The position numbers and the translations under genes were made by a program. Shown here in pieces: positions 9,249 to 22,911 of a stretch of DNA of 64,000 bases. Source of the DNA: Candidatus Methanohalarchaeum thermophilum. Lineage in GTDB: Archaea > Halobacteriota > Methanonatronarchaeia > Methanonatronarchaeales > Methanonatronarchaeaceae. Location: positions 1 through 64,000 of the forward strand of contig MSDW01000001.1 in NCBI GenBank assembly GCA_001914405.1. Direction: 5' to 3'. Numbering within the stretch: the first letter of the stretch is position 1; each line of letters opens with the position of its first letter. The notes under the pieces are model-generated. The model was not told the DNA's origin. It saw only the letters and a program-made list of their open reading frames with translations, and made no database searches.

Positions 9249-10658
9249 ATGACAGAAAAATATACAACACGAAAAGGAGACGGCAGAAAAATAGAACTAA
9301 CCAAATCAGAGATAAGAGAAGACATAGAGGAAGGATCAGCCGATGCAGCAAACAAAGGAGGAATAAACGAACTAAAAGAAGACGAAAAAGATAAAATAGT
9401 TTCACTCATCACCGACCCAAGTAAAGTAGTCTCAGTCGAAAAAGGAAACGAAGTACCATTCACCCACGACATAGGCACCCTACGATTAATGGGTGACCAA
9501 GGAAACAGCGGAGTAGGAATACCAATGTCAAGAGAACAAGGAGTAAAAACACACGAAAGAGCATTCGCAGTAGACACAATGGAATTAGGCCACATAGACT
9601 ACAGTTTCAAACCCGCAAAACCAATTATAGCACAAGAACAACAAACCCTAGAAGACATACTACTATCAACAATAGTACCAATATGGTATGGCGCAATGCC
9701 AAACCTAGGACTATATTACGCACCAGACGGCCAATTCAAAAACCCAAACGAATTAATGCCAGAAGGAAAAATCAAAGAAGCTAAAGAAGCACAAGAAAAA
9801 GCAATAGAACAAGCCAAAGAAGATATGAGCTACATAGCCGAAAACTTAAGAAAAGTAGGACTAGACGGGCTAAACATAGACACAACAGCAGCAGCAGGAG
9901 ACCCAGACTTCAAAGCAGTACTCGAAGTAACAGAAGAACTAAAATCAAACCCAGAAACCGAAGACCTAGCAATAGAAATCGGAATGGCAGCAGAACACGT
10001 ACTAGGAATGCACGGCGACCTAGAATACAACGGAAAACAACTAGCGGGAATATTCCCACACGAACAAGTAGAAATAGTCGAAGAAGCAGGCGGAGACCTA
10101 TTCGGGCCAGTATGCAACACCAAAACAGGAAAATCACTTCCATGGAACCTAGCAAGAGCAGTTACATTCGTAAAGGAAACCAGCAAAGTATCAGACATAC
10201 CTATACATGTAAACATGGGAATGGGCGTATGCGGAGTCCCAATGTTCGAGACACCTCCTGTAGACGCAGTAACCAGAGCATCTTCCGCAATGGTCGAAGT
10301 AGGAAATGTAGACGGCATATAGGTAGGAGTTGGTGACCCAGTGGGAATGAACATAGCCCACTACGCAGCCTCAGGCCTAGGAGGAATCAGAACAGCCGGA
10401 GACCTAGTCGCCAGATGCCAAATGAGAGAAAACATGAAAATAGACGAAGCAAAAAACTACGTAGCCAAAAAACTCGATGTAGACACACAAGACCTCTCAA
10501 ACGTAAATGTAATGAGAGACCTCAGAGAAGAACTAGACATAGGAGTCATAACCTCACTACCCGGAGCAGCAAAAGGAGTAGAAGCAAAATCAAAAATAGC
10601 AGATGTCCTCGACATAGAAATACCATCCGTAAACAGACTCAAAAACAAAATAGAATAA
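9249..10658 (+). CDS. mtbB: Dimethylamine methyltransferase MtbB, pyrrolysine-containing (UAG read through)
   Basis: This enzyme transfers one methyl group of dimethylamine to MtbC. A single in-frame TAG at 10320-10322 is codon 358; the flanks are GNVDGI before and [13 protein letters not shown] after, matching the pyrrolysine site of MtbB (356 in Methanosarcina). With read-through the protein is 469 residues and ends in TAA. Conserved stretches include [39 protein letters not shown] and FGPVCNT. A GAGGGAT ribosome site within the end of mtbC precedes the ATG. A second ATG at 10346, after the TAG, is not a separate gene start. Confidence 0.96.
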
Positions 10659-11024: not shown

Positions 11025-12515
11025 TTATATTTGTACTTTTACTTCTTCGTTTTTGTCTGCTTTTTTGACGATATCTTCCATGTCTGATAGGAGGTCACTG
11101 TCTATTTTCTTGACTTCGTGTTCTGATAGTACTTTGTTTACAAAGTCGTGTGCTCTTTCTGTCATGTTTTGGCTACCTTTGCTTTCCCAGTCTCCTCTCA
11201 TGTTTCTATCTATTAACTCATGTTCTGAATGCATGTCCATGTTGCTTATTGTGCTGTCGTGTTCTAGGAAGTTACCGTATTTTACATCTCTGACTGAATC
11301 TAGTGATATTGTTTCGTCTGATACTGGTATTCCGCCTCCGGCTACTTTTTCTACCATTTTTATTACTGCGTCGTCGATTGCTAGTTGTTCTAGTGCGCAT
11401 GTGTTACCTAGTTCTAGCATTCCTGCTCCGTATAGTGTGTTTGCTCCTCCTAGTTGTGGCAGTAATGTTGTGATTGTTTTTTCGTGAGCCGCCTGAGCAT
11501 CAGGCAGCTTAGAATCAGCCTATATGCCGGCTACAAAGGTTGGTAGGTCGTAGTATTGTCCGAGTTTTGCGACTGAGGCGCTTATCATTCCTAGTTCAGG
11601 AGCTCCTACTGGTGCTGTTCCTTTTTTGACATCGAACATTGTTGTTGAGCTTCCGTACCAGACTGGTGCTCCAGGTTTGAAGATCTGTGAAAGAACTATT
11701 CCTGCTAGTACTTCTGCGTTGTGTGTTACTAATGTGCTTGCTAGGTTCATGTTTCCTGATGCTCCTGCCATTGCCATGCTTAGTACATTTACTGGGATTC
11801 CTAGTTTTGCTCCTTTTTCGATTACTTTAAGACCGTTTTCTCCTAGTTGTAGTGGACTTGTTGGGCATAGTAGCATAGAGAATATTGGTCTTTCTCTTGC
11901 CATTTCTTCGTCTCCACCGTAGTATGCTTTAACCATTTCCCAGTAGTATTCTACATTTTCAGCTACTGGATCTATGTGGTGGAAGTGTTTTGATGTGTTT
12001 TTTATTGATGTTAGAAATTCATGTACATCTATTTCTGCGTCTGATGGTAGGTCTCTTGCGGCTACGGTTAGAGAGTAGTAGTCTATGCTGTCTAGGTAGT
12101 CAGCTAGTTTTGCTTGGTCTTCTATGTCTTTTTGTTTTGAGTCTCTTATATTGAAGTTACCGTTGTCGTCTATTTCTAGGGTTGATACTCCAGTTCCAAA
12201 GGTGGTGCAGTTTACATCTGGACCAGCTTCTTGCATTACATCTTTGTCTTCGTCTCTTGCTGGTAAGTTAAAGCTGCTAGGAGCTTTACTTAGGGCGTCA
12301 TTAACCAAGTGTTCTGGTATTTTTACAATTTTGCCATCTACTTCGCATCCTGCTTCTCTGAATACATTTCTTGCTCTTTCTGTTTCCACTCTGATCCCTG
12401 GATCTCTTAGTACTTTCATGGTTGAGCGATGGATTTTATCTAATTCATCGTCTGTGAATAATTCTAGCTTTGATCCTTTTTGACTGTTTATTCCAGCCCA
12501 TGTTCTATCTTTCAA
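11025..12515 (-). CDS. mttB: Trimethylamine methyltransferase MttB, pyrrolysine-containing (UAG read through)
   Basis: This enzyme moves a methyl group from trimethylamine to MttC. An in-frame TAG at 11520-11522 is codon 332; the flanks are LPTFVAGI before and [15 protein letters not shown] after, matching the pyrrolysine site of MttB (334 in Methanosarcina). With read-through the product is 496 residues. Family segments include [11 protein letters not shown] near the N-terminus, [20 protein letters not shown] and [10 protein letters not shown]. The start is TTG, with AGGTGAT upstream. Unlike mtmBC and mtbCB, its corrinoid protein is not adjacent: mttC lies about 2.2 kb away on the other strand, beyond pylTSB. 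Confidence 0.96.
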
Positions 12516-12629: not shown

Positions 12630-13676
12630 TTAAAATCCATTGATGTAGTCAACAAGTTCTTGAGTTCTTGCAGCCCTAAACCCATTTTCTTCCAAATAAC
12701 TCTTAACCTGAGAAGGAGACCTCTCACCATCCTCTATACCATACTCATGGTTTGCAACTCCCGACAAACTAAAATCAGGAGGTATAATAGAAGTAACCAC
12801 ATTAGCTCCTGCTCGAATTTTTTCTGATATCCCATCCAAGCCTCTAATATCCAAAGAAGCAGGAACCAATTTCCTCGGATTAGTTAATCTCAACAAAGCA
12901 ATAATTAATTTTGGATCCCTCTTCTTAACTTCCGGAAGAGGAACTCCATCATGTCTCACATACTCCATACACCTAACTTGAGCCACATCTTCCTGCGACA
13001 TCTGATATATGGTTCTGGCCAGTGAATCTGTATCTTCACCCAAATTGTATAGTAATCCATCCTCCGCCAACAATCCAGCTTCTCTCGCTTCTTTTCTCAC
13101 TCTTTTTCTAGCTTTAAATGATTGATTAGGTCGTAACTCTTTATATAAGTTTAAGTCATGGGTTTCTTGATAGATAGCGTACCAATCAGCGCCTTTTTCG
13201 TGTATTTTCTGTATTTGATCCTTATTTTTAACTCCTGGACTAACCATTATTGGTCTATTTAATGTTGAAAGTTCTTCGATTATATTTAGTAGTTCTCCAA
13301 AGTTTTTTTCATAGTATGGATCCTGTCCAGATGTTATATCTATTAAATTGACTCCTTCTTCGATTAGAGACTTTGAGATCTCGAATATCTCTTTCTTGTC
13401 CTTACGATATCTATTAGGTAGTTCATTAGTTTTTCTGTAGTAACAGAAGTTACAGTTATTTCTACATACAGTAGAGAAGTAGACAAACCCGTAAAGAAAG
13501 ACTTTATTTGAAAAAAACTTTTCCCTTACCTTAGATGCTGTTTCTAAGATCTTTTTCTTTTCCTCGTCTTCTTGGATGCTTAAAAGCCTTTTAATGTCTT
13601 CTTTATCAAAAGATTGGTTCTGCACATTTTTCAATGCTTCTTCAAAATCTCTATTCAAGTATTTAGTTGATTTCAA
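12630..13676 (-). CDS. pylB: Methylornithine synthase PylB (radical SAM)
   Basis: PylB converts lysine to (3R)-3-methyl-D-ornithine, the first step of pyrrolysine synthesis. The 348-residue product has the radical-SAM cluster motif CRNNCNFC (CxxxCxxC, about residues 71-78) followed by YYRKTN, then a TIM-barrel with GVNLIDITSGQDP, the IYQETHD segment and a C-terminal region ending in AARTQELVDYINGF. Its ATG overlaps the last 14 nt of pylS, indicating translational coupling. It belongs to the pylT-pylS-pylB unit. Confidence 0.93.
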   Translation of the reverse strand: MKSTKYLNRDFEEALKNVQNQSFDKEDIKRLLSIQEDEEKKKILETASKVREKFFSNKVFLYGFVYFSTVCRNNCNFCYYRKTNELPNRYRKDKKEIFEISKSLIEEGVNLIDITSGQDPYYEKNFGELLNIIEELSTLNRPIMVSPGVKNKDQIQKIHEKGADWYAIYQETHDLNLYKELRPNQSFKARKRVRKEAREAGLLAEDGLLYNLGEDTDSLARTIYQMSQEDVAQVRCMEYVRHDGVPLPEVKKRDPKLIIALLRLTNPRKLVPASLDIRGLDGISEKIRAGANVVTSIIPPDFSLSGVANHEYGIEDGERSPSQVKSYLEENGFRAARTQELVDYINGF

Positions 13677-14484
13677 GTCTTATACCATCCTGGTAGCTAA
13701 GGGATCTAGCGTAGGATTTTATTGAATTTCCCTCGTTTTTTGTTTGTATTAGTCTTTCTACCCCGATCCCTATTCCTATCCAGGGTTTATTTATAGAGAA
13801 ATTCGCATCAAGGGGATGTGGTCCTATTACGCTTGAGGCTATTTCTAGGCCATTAACCTCTATATCCAGAGTTTTTCCATATACAGTAGATTTTTCTTCT
13901 TCTATTTTGTAATCTACTAAGTTTCCAATTATTTCATCGATCATTTCTCTGGTTCTTTTCTCTTTATCTTTTATTTCACCCACTTCTACTGCGTTGAGCA
14001 TCTTAAATTCTCGAACATGGTTTTTTCCTTGTTCCTTCCTGAAACATGTCCCTAATTCAAATAATTTAACGACATCTTTTTTACTTATTCTAAGAAAGTG
14101 TTTCATCTGCCTATATAAGTTAGGAGCTAGCATTGGTCTTAAACACTTATTTCCTTCATCTAACTTATATATTTGATTGTATATGTTGCTTTCTTCTGAT
14201 ATATTCATTTTATTTTTTAGTACGGACATAGAGATTATGTGAGGAGTTTGAACCTCGGTGAAATCGCTTTCATATAGATTTTTTCTTAGTTTCTGTTCGG
14301 TTTTTTTCCAATCGGGTTCGTTTATTCGTTGGAGTTTCTTAAATTTGTTTCTATTCTTTTTCTGTAGTTCAGTCTCTTTTCTTTCGAAGAATTCGTCTCT
14401 TTCTTCTTGATCTTCAAAAGTGGGTGCTTCTCCTTGGTAACCTAGTTCCCTTAGCCTCTGTGATTGTGATCTCGTTAATTCCAT
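13663..14484 (-). CDS. pylS: Pyrrolysyl-tRNA synthetase PylS without PylSn domain (short motif 2 loop)
   Basis: This class II synthetase charges tRNA-Pyl. The 273-residue protein is only the catalytic domain, so it is the PylSn-lacking class. The pocket residues I can align with the Methanosarcina enzyme are L123, Y124, N164, V166 (Cys in M. mazei), Y202 and W235. Motif 2 reads CFRKEQGKNHVREF, at least one residue shorter than the M. mazei loop CYRKESDGKEHLEEF. Motif 3 is GIGIGVERLIQ. The frame continues upstream through the tRNA gene, but the ATG at 14484 right after the tRNA fits the family start. A short loop together with A73 in the adjacent tRNA suggests the orthogonal second PylRS type. 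Confidence 0.93.
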   Translation of the reverse strand: MELTRSQSQRLRELGYQGEAPTFEDQEERDEFFERKETELQKKNRNKFKKLQRINEPDWKKTEQKLRKNLYESDFTEVQTPHIISMSVLKNKMNISEESNIYNQIYKLDEGNKCLRPMLAPNLYRQMKHFLRISKKDVVKLFELGTCFRKEQGKNHVREFKMLNAVEVGEIKDKEKRTREMIDEIIGNLVDYKIEEEKSTVYGKTLDIEVNGLEIASSVIGPHPLDANFSINKPWIGIGIGVERLIQTKNEGNSIKSYARSLSYQDGIRLEIN

Positions 14485-14490
14485 AGTCAG

Positions 14491-14576
14491 TGGGGAGCCC
14501 GGGAGTTGAACCCGGCAACCGAGGGTTTCTCCTTTTAGGGTAACTAGAGCCCCCTTGGCCACCCGACCAGCCCCCC
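14491..14576 (-). tRNA. pylT: tRNA-Pyl (anticodon CUA), A73, with a predicted 17-nt intron
   Basis: The acceptor stem GGGGGGC pairs with GCTCCCC (seven pairs, one G-U), followed by discriminator A at 14491. U8 is a single base and the D stem GGTC/GGCC has a four-base loop, both tRNA-Pyl traits. The T arm is CCGGG-TTCAACT-CCCGG. Removing 14527-14543 gives anticodon stem GGGGG/CCCTC, loop CTCTAGA with CUA at 14547-14545, and a 69-nt mature tRNA, the Methanosarcina length. Without the intron the anticodon stem has a mismatch and the variable region is 21 nt. It ends six bases before the pylS ATG on the same strand, so pylT-pylS-pylB are likely co-transcribed. CCA is not encoded. Confidence 0.88.
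14527..14543 (-). other. Predicted archaeal-type intron in tRNA-Pyl (between positions 37 and 38)
   Basis: The fold expected by the archaeal splicing endonuclease can be drawn. The exon bases CUCU pair with GGAG near the intron 3' end (four pairs, one U-G). They are flanked by the three-base bulges AGU and AAA on opposite strands and supported by the GGGGG/CCCUC anticodon stem. Cutting two bases into each bulge removes 17 nt and places the junction at the canonical 37/38 site. The outer intron helix is missing or very short (a ten-base loop), so this is a relaxed bulge-helix-bulge. Confidence 0.7.
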
Positions 14577-14702: not shown

Positions 14703-15341
14703 ATGAGTTTAATAGAAGAAGCTAAAAAAGCGGTTCTAGAATACGATGAAGAAAAAGCAAAAGAAATATCAAACAAAGTAGTCGAAGACGGTACAGATCC
14801 AGTTAAAGTAATCCAAGAAGGATACACAAAAGGAATCCAGATAATAGGAGAAAAATTCGATAACGAAGAAATATACCTACCCCAAGTAATGCAAGCAGCC
14901 AACACAATGCAAGCCGGAGTAGAAATACTAAAACCACACCTAGAAGACAACACATCCGACGAAAAACAAACAACGGTCGCACTAGCAACAGTAGAAGGCG
15001 ACATCCACGAAATCGGCAAAAACATCGTAAAAACAATGCTAAACGTTGAAGGATTCAATATAATCGACCTAGGAAAAGACGTACCACTAGACGAAATAGT
15101 AGAAACAGTAGAAAAAGATGACCCAGATGTAGTAGGAACCTCAGCACTCATGACAAGCACAATCGGAAAACAAGAAGAACTAGAAGAACAACTAAAAGAA
15201 AAAGACCTCCGAGAAGACGTAAAAACATTAGTAGGAGGAGCACCAGTAACAGAAGACTGGGCAAAAGAAATCGGCGCAGACGCATGGGCCGAAAACGCAC
15301 AAAGCGCACCCGAAGTAATAAACGAAATAACAGAAGAATAA
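14703..15341 (+). CDS. mttC: Trimethylamine corrinoid protein MttC
   Basis: The 212-residue corrinoid methyl carrier has a helical cap (about 1-85) and a B12-binding domain with GDIHEIGKN near residue 100, TSALMTSTIGKQ near 148 and GGAPVTEDW near 178. By elimination (mtmC and mtbC sit with their methyltransferases) it is the partner of MttB, which is the nearest methyltransferase. It is divergent from pylTSB and followed 51 nt later by a MarR-like regulator gene, probably in the same transcript. Confidence 0.88.
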   Translation: MSLIEEAKKAVLEYDEEKAKEISNKVVEDGTDPVKVIQEGYTKGIQIIGEKFDNEEIYLPQVMQAANTMQAGVEILKPHLEDNTSDEKQTTVALATVEGDIHEIGKNIVKTMLNVEGFNIIDLGKDVPLDEIVETVEKDDPDVVGTSALMTSTIGKQEELEEQLKEKDLREDVKTLVGGAPVTEDWAKEIGADAWAENAQSAPEVINEITEE

Positions 15342-21607: not shown

Positions 21608-21760
21608 GTGAACTACCCCTACCTAACCTTCGGTGAGGAAGGGGCTTCCTGCGAGTCCTCCCAACTCCTAATTGGAGAAACTCTCATTTTATGTTCGGCT
21701 GTTTGTCGCAGAAAACCTTCCATAAAGGAAGATTGCTCGTCCACAGAGCGTTCTTGTGAT
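21608..21760 (-). ncRNA. Probable omega RNA (reRNA) region at the tnpB 3' end
   Basis: In TnpB elements the guide RNA spans the end of the tnpB gene and the right transposon end, with the guide taken from flanking DNA. The last about 100 nt of tnpB plus the right-end hairpins (GGAAGCCCCTTCCTCACCG and the ATGAGAGTTTCTCC-like palindrome) fit this. The 5' boundary cannot be fixed by eye. Confidence 0.4.
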
Positions 21761-22911
21761 AGGAAACGATACATTATATTGACAGCAGAATTCCTGTCTC
21801 TGTCAATCTCATTTCCACAATCACATTTATAAGTTCTTTCATGTAGTGGTATTTCTTGTTTCTTTCCACAAACACAGCATCTTTTGGTAGTGTTTGCTTC
21901 GTTGATTTCTATTACCTTCTTACCTACAAGTTTTGCCTTGTAGGTTAGAAATCTAACGAATCTACCAATCGTGCCTGTGTTTTGTAGACTCCTATTCAAG
22001 CCTTCTGCATACTTGTTGTTCTGTGCCATATCTTTAGTATTCAAGTCTCCAACTACTATCGTATTCGCTTTAGTATTCTCAACTATTTTCCTACTTGTCT
22101 TGTGTTGCCAATCCTTCATTTGATTGGCACACTTTCTTTTCATCTTCTTCAGTTTCTTGTTATACCTTTTCCACCTATTACTTCCTTTCTTACAGTGATC
22201 TCTTTTTGATTGAACCTCTTCTATCTTTGATTGCCAATACTTGTCTGGTCTTGGATTCTTGAACTCAACAAACTTCCCATCCATATTTACTCCTGTATGT
22301 TTTGTGATACCTAAATCAAACGCCTGATAAAGTCCATTATCTTTATACTCTGGTGTTTCTTCTTTATAGGTTACTGATATGTAGTATTCTCCTTTGAACT
22401 CATCCCTAAAGATTTCAACTTGTTTAACATTTTTATCTTCTAAATCAAACTTGCTTGGAATATCAAAAGATAGCTCTATTTTATCTGGGTGATTGTGAGA
22501 AAATTTTATTTCTCCATTTTTTATCTCAAACCCAGATTGGTTATAGCATAAAGTGGTGAGATAGTTACTACCTTTGAATCTCGGTGGATTTGCTTTCTCA
22601 TTTCCTTCCTTCCAAAGGGAGAAGAATGACTTGTAATTGGCGTCCAGCTTCTTTAGAGTCATTTGTAAAACTTTAGAATACACCCAGTTGTATCTTGGGT
22701 ATTCCTCTTTTAATTTGGGTAACTTATTTTGTTGTTCTGTGTATGTGATATAGTTTCTGTCTTCCTTTGGCTTATTTTTATTTTTCTTCCAATCTTCTAT
22801 TCTCTCTTTCAAAGAAAAGTTATAGAGTAATCTACATACCTCAGATAAAGAAGTGAGAACTTCTTCCTGTTCTTCTGTCGGCTCAATCTTTATTTTTTGG
22901 GTCAGTTGCAT
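21619..22911 (-). CDS. tnpB: TnpB RNA-guided nuclease (IS605 OrfB family)
   Basis: The 430-residue TnpB has an N-terminal helical/WED region (LTQKIKIEPTEEQ), RuvC-I Asp in AFDLGITKH (D199), RuvC-II region TIVVGDLNTKDM, a zinc finger with CCVCG and CDCG (about 345-365), and RuvC-III DRDRNSAVNI (D372). The usual RuvC-II Glu (VxEDL) is Gly288; a Glu in INEANTTK (E338) may replace it, as in TnpB groups with a shifted catalytic Glu. The gene ends in TAG close to the right end. Confidence 0.9.
   Translation of the reverse strand: MQLTQKIKIEPTEEQEEVLTSLSEVCRLLYNFSLKERIEDWKKNKNKPKEDRNYITYTEQQNKLPKLKEEYPRYNWVYSKVLQMTLKKLDANYKSFFSLWKEGNEKANPPRFKGSNYLTTLCYNQSGFEIKNGEIKFSHNHPDKIELSFDIPSKFDLEDKNVKQVEIFRDEFKGEYYISVTYKEETPEYKDNGLYQAFDLGITKHTGVNMDGKFVEFKNPRPDKYWQSKIEEVQSKRDHCKKGSNRWKRYNKKLKKMKRKCANQMKDWQHKTSRKIVENTKANTIVVGDLNTKDMAQNNKYAEGLNRSLQNTGTIGRFVRFLTYKAKLVGKKVIEINEANTTKRCCVCGKKQEIPLHERTYKCDCGNEIDRDRNSAVNIMYRFLSQERSVDEQSSFMEGFLRQTAEHKMRVSPIRSWEDSQEAPSSPKVR

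Follow-up and report, generated by a model that had tools for sequence, protein, structure and literature searches.

How a tRNA-Pyl gene of 86 nt, in a family whose members are about 69 nt long, can give rise to a regular amber suppressor tRNA is the question raised by pylT2, which lies directly upstream of a pyrrolysyl-tRNA synthetase gene in the 64,000-nt stretch of DNA analyzed here (the window). A first-pass annotation had proposed that the excess length is an intron of 17 nt following G37, and that maturation of the suppressor would consequently depend on splicing. Here we examine this proposal against the splice motif, the folding of the RNA, pylT genes of other genomes, a paralogue in the same genome and the host's own tRNA introns, and we relate it to what is already in print.

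Results

Excision of 17 nt restores a normal tRNA-Pyl

ARAGORN calls a tRNA-Pyl at 14490-14576 on the minus strand with CUA at position 30, and placing A73 at 14491 gives the length of 86 nt (Table 1), just as the first-pass annotation had it. The CUA anticodon, the single nucleotide between the acceptor and D stems, the short variable loop and the neighboring pylS are the features expected of a tRNA-Pyl. When the 17 nt are skipped, the remaining 69 nt adopt a cloverleaf as their minimum-energy fold, in which all four stems are paired, the anticodon stem reads GGGGG/CCCUC and its loop CUCUAGA; both the splice-site scan described below and the fold thus agree with the exon structure proposed earlier. 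The predicted variable loop of five bases is likewise recovered (GGUUG, 5 nt after a 5-bp stem), intronless relatives having 4 or 5 nt by the same count. Excision of the insert therefore restores a normal tRNA, as would be expected of an archaeal intron.

Table 1. Features of pylT2 and of its surroundings in the window
Feature	Position	Strand	Basis or remark
mtbB, in-frame UAG 10320-10322	9249..10658	+	two ORFs; Rfam PYLIS_2 10320-10418
mttB, in-frame UAG 11520-11522	11025..12515	-	two ORFs; Rfam PYLIS_3 11423-11522
pylB2, methylornithine synthase	12630..13676	-	TIGR03910 374.6 bits, above cut-off
pylS2, C-terminal-domain-only pyrrolysyl-tRNA synthetase	13663..14484	-	TIGR02367 230 bits, above cut-off; one-residue motif-2 gap relative to PylS1
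pylT2, intron-containing tRNA-Pyl gene, A73 encoded, CCA not encoded	14491..14576	-	ARAGORN; tRNA-Pyl covariance model match 14491-14576, 48.2 bits
pylT2 3' exon, 36 nt, from A38	14491..14526	-	splice-motif scan
Anticodon stem 3' strand CCCUC	14521..14525	-	full pairing only with intron skipped; covaries with pylT1 GGAGG/CCUUC
pylT2 intron, 17 nt, UUACCCUAAAAGGAGAA	14527..14543	-	top canonical-geometry site; missing in 85/85 full-length pylT of other genomes
GGAG, central-helix intron strand	14529..14532	-	splice-motif scan; pair probability 0.75-0.80 (free fold), 0.52-0.56 (cloverleaf-constrained)
pylT2 5' exon, 33 nt, to G37	14544..14576	-	splice-motif scan
Anticodon CUA	14545..14547	-	ARAGORN position 30
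CUCU, central-helix exon strand, nt 32-35	14546..14549	-	splice-motif scan
Anticodon stem 5' strand GGGGG	14550..14554	-	splice-motif scan, stem comparison
Methylamine corrinoid protein gene, divergent from pylT2	14703..15341	+	TIGR02370 above cut-off

The surroundings of pylT2 are those of a pyrrolysine locus (Table 1). The A73 of pylT2 and the ATG of pylS2 are separated by 6 nt on the same strand (14484-14491), so that a pylS2 mRNA released by 3' processing of the tRNA would have almost no leader. Elsewhere in the genome there are two ORFs (21619-22911 of the window and L038:1816-2592) that, by their zinc-ribbon ends, resemble IS200/IS605-type TnpB proteins.

The predicted splice motif resembles a bulge-helix-loop

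When pylT2 was scanned exhaustively for the canonical splice geometry (central helix of 4 bp, two bulges of 3 nt, outer helix), the top-ranked site had its cut after nt 33 and exon 2 resuming at nt 51, that is, the intron of Table 1, with an outer helix of 5 bp, CUCU/GGAG as the central helix, and AG^U and AA^A as the bulges. Full pairing with CUCU is possible for 4 of the 256 4-mers, and a helix at this fixed position arose in 777 of 100,000 shuffles of the insert. The inner helix amounts to 1 bp in the scan, or is replaced in the fold by a 2x2 internal loop before UUA/UAA. Since there is almost no inner helix, the motif (central helix 4/4, 3' bulge AA^A, outer helix present, a loop on the 5' side) is best described as a bulge-helix-loop rather than a full bulge-helix-bulge. 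The four-pair helix with three-base bulges on both strands envisaged by the first-pass annotation hence stands as far as the helix, the two cut sequences and their top rank are concerned, but is weaker as regards a complete bulge-helix-bulge. The folding energy of the whole pre-tRNA is no better than that of shuffled sequences (z -0.44), and the anticodon stem occupies 13% of the ensemble in the free fold, because of a competing misfold, and 47% when the cloverleaf arms are imposed.

Sliding both cuts one base upstream, so that the intron would comprise 14528-14544, would yield the loop CUCUAAA, which is found in the pylT genes of Methanosarcinales and of many bacteria. This placement would, however, break the AG^U/AA^A geometry, of which the host's tRNA-Tyr has an exact copy (see below), and the loop CUCUAGA of the spliced pylT2 does occur in an intronless archaeal pylT (L136); we therefore hold the alternative cuts to be very unlikely.

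The insert sets pylT2 apart from the pylT genes of other genomes

For comparison we assembled 110 PylRS loci of other genomes, 30 from members of the phylum and 80 of the 326 confirmed matches in named genomes. Initial pylT scans missed divergent genes, mainly those of Methanomassiliicoccales, and the counts are therefore taken from a tRNA-Pyl covariance model, which was built from 24 of the comparison loci whose genes are also among those counted. A full-length pylT was found in 85 loci (75 and 10 in two covariance-model scans; 51 archaeal and 34 bacterial, as judged by record titles and handles), the other 25 including two (L132 and L148) that are cut by a contig end. All 85 genes span 67-70 nt, as opposed to 86 and 108 nt for the two genes of the genome studied here. 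At the level of sequence, and among the full-length pylT genes compared, the insert is thus specific to this genome. A conserved variable arm in relatives, the observation that the first-pass annotation had set against its own proposal, is found in none of the 85.

Closer relatives offered no further cases: a scan of viral contigs returned none, no PylRS exceeded the cut-off in the two other genomes of the class (three genomes being compared in all), and neither of these two contained a convincing pylT, their best matches scoring 31.6 and 25.1 bits when an ordinary tRNA of the genome studied here scores 25.9. An MSBL1 archaeon with a similar PylRS2 is named in PMC9071458; our searches returned no match to it.

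The paralogue pylT1 carries a homologous intron

The genome contains a second pylT (pylT1; C1:1557261-1557368, minus strand), located upstream of a second PylRS that is 53% identical to the pylS2 product. This gene of 108 nt, which ARAGORN missed when run without introns, carries G73, and an additional nucleotide precedes its anticodon arm. Its intron measures 12 nt, and the site, the CUCU/GGAG helix and the GGAGAAACC 3' border are identical to those of pylT2. Its anticodon stem (GGAGG/CCUUC) differs from GGGGG/CCCUC by one compensated pair, G29-C41 having become A29-U41. The common site, helix and border indicate, by sequence comparison, an intron older than the duplication of pylS/pylT, a point on which the accessible text of Zhang et al. 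(PMC9071458) contains no statement that we could find and which we regard as a small addition.

These observations bear directly on the opposite reading of pylT2, namely a tRNA-Pyl without an intron that keeps a long variable region (21-22 nt) when mature. This would fit with ARAGORN, run without introns, accepting the unspliced gene and with four of the five positions of the unspliced anticodon stem being able to pair. The fifth, however, is a G-A mismatch, in line with the mismatched stem noted in the first-pass annotation, whereas the stem pairs fully once spliced; the unspliced pairs have probabilities of 0 to 0.21; the counterpart stem of pylT1 forms only when spliced, and covaries; and such an arm is absent from every full-length pylT of the other genomes. 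We consider a retained variable region in pylT2 extremely unlikely. The proposed dependence of maturation on splicing draws its support from the position of the motif, from the homologous and covarying pylT1, from the 85 insert-free genes and from the processing machinery described below.

In pylT1 (also L038:9262-9369) the variable region is 30 nt long and holds a second insert, which folds as a perfect 11-bp hairpin. Scanning it revealed no canonical splice geometry that would leave a variable loop of 3-5 nt, and the insert may be either an intron of a relaxed kind or a retained variable arm. The latter is conceivable because the PylRS belongs to the type that lacks a domain reading the variable loop, and a retained hairpin would make pylT1 a natural tRNA-Pyl with a long variable arm. 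Zhang et al. presumably read this insert as an intron; its description as a perfect hairpin devoid of a canonical splice motif is a further small addition to PMC9071458.

Short tRNA introns and their processing enzymes are commonplace in the host

With introns allowed, ARAGORN calls introns in 11 of the 43 other tRNA loci of the genome. Those of tRNA-Tyr(GUA) and tRNA-Cys(GCA), each 25 nt, and of tRNA-Ala, 17 nt, share the geometry of pylT2: the central helix has four pairs, the inner helix 0-1 bp, and tRNA-Tyr repeats both AG^U and AA^A. In most of the other introns, no more than three of the four central positions pair at the likely site. The tRNA loci examined (L006-L035 and L150-L162) are unusually rich in short introns, and by eye one of them (L161) seemingly combines an anticodon-loop intron with an additional insertion in its D arm. 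The splicing endonuclease EndA, a protein of 337 aa in which PF01974 and PF02778 each occur twice and which scores above the TIGR00324 cut-off, presumably represents the fused two-repeat form known from euryarchaea; RtcB is encoded as well, so that both an endonuclease and a ligase are at hand. Because short tRNA introns and both enzymes occur in the same genome, the pylT2 intron is ordinary for its host.

The intron has been described for HMET1

The first-pass annotation did not say whether such an intron had been reported; it has. Zhang et al. 2022 (PMC9071458) described Candidatus Methanohalarchaeum thermophilum HMET1 as having two C-terminal-only PylRS of 53% identity, each encoded immediately downstream of its own pylT, and a duplicated pylB; pylT1 has G73 and an extra nucleotide between the D and anticodon arms, pylT2 has A73, and PylRS2 has a motif-2 loop shorter by one residue (PMC9499178). 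The genome studied here shows the same PylRS identity, motif-2 gap, A73/G73 difference, two pylB genes and extra pylT1 nucleotide, and the window gene is thus almost certainly pylT2 of HMET1, a halophilic methanogen, or of a strain very near to it. Since the tRNA-Pyl introns of HMET1 are reported in the text of PMC9071458, the intron is already known, in print at least in words. The numbering of the two pairs is opposite in different sources: A73 belongs to tRNA-Pyl2 in PMC9071458, whereas in PMC11467909 it is pair 1 that has the unusual discriminator base and the deletion in motif 2, and pylT2 is therm tRNA-Pyl(1) in the numbering of Chem Rev 2024.

That pylT2 is a pseudogene in decay, its insert a chance insertion, is barely conceivable. 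Its 48.2 bits do fall below the 53-89 bits of nearly all full-length pylT genes of other genomes, a loss much of which we take to be due to the insert. Against decay, all four stems pair after splicing, the adjoining pylS2 is intact and above cut-off, and tRNA-Pyl2 together with PylRS2 of HMET1 is reported to suppress UAG in Haloferax volcanii (PMC9071458).

Discussion

Sequence, fold, homology and the machinery genes together make it very probable that pylT2 encodes a pre-tRNA with a 17-nt archaeal intron at the canonical position 37/38, which is spliced to a 69-nt tRNA-Pyl; from these we infer the cleavage, the ligation and the mature end points of tRNA-Pyl2. In the model that we favor, the anticodon-loop CUCU (nt 32-35) would pair with GGAG of the intron. 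A38 would thereby sit in a bulge of three bases (AA^A), and the 5' cut (AG^U) would lie in the neighboring loop. The two-repeat endonuclease would then most likely cut at G37^U and at A^A38, and RtcB would ligate the halves into the 69-nt tRNA-Pyl with the loop CUCUAGA, which PylRS2 would charge by way of A73 so that UAG could be read in genes such as mttB and mtbB. The pylS/pylT duplication would have come after the intron, of which pylT1 keeps a form of 12 nt at the same position.

With C34 and U35 bound up in the CUCU/GGAG helix until splicing, the precursor should not read UAG. It could be argued from this that the intron acts as a gate for amber suppression: UAG reading by either tRNA-Pyl would require splicing, and the intron would have persisted from before the duplication because whatever controls splicing also controls pyrrolysine insertion. 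We give this idea only a slight chance of being correct and see no reason to assume a special control of pyrrolysine, since the same would hold for other intron-bearing tRNAs of the host. Given that similar short introns are called in about a quarter of the other tRNA loci (11 of 43), the intron tells more of the host's intron-rich tRNA set than of pyrrolysine.

Two practical consequences follow nevertheless from a suppressor tRNA that is matured by splicing. Gene finders may miss or misread it, as ARAGORN did when run without introns; it accepted the pylT2 gene unspliced and missed pylT1 altogether. Moreover, genetic code expansion with the pylT2/PylRS2 pair requires the spliced sequence.

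Compared with known systems, the window gene matches HMET1 pylT2 in A73, in its place immediately upstream of pylS2, in the one-residue motif-2 deletion of the partner PylRS and in the intron, and the published text, as far as it is accessible, revealed no feature in which the two differ (PMC9071458). The introns of the host's own tRNA-Tyr(GUA) and tRNA-Cys(GCA) resemble that of pylT2 in the 37/38 position, a 4-bp central helix involving nt 32-35, the AG^ 5' cut and the near-absence of an inner helix; unlike them, pylT2 encodes an amber suppressor tRNA-Pyl. Finally, the tRNA-Sec intron described for Lokiarchaeota (PMC9499178) also belongs to a tRNA that serves an expanded genetic code, although there the intron has 31 nt, lies in the T arm and concerns selenocysteine.
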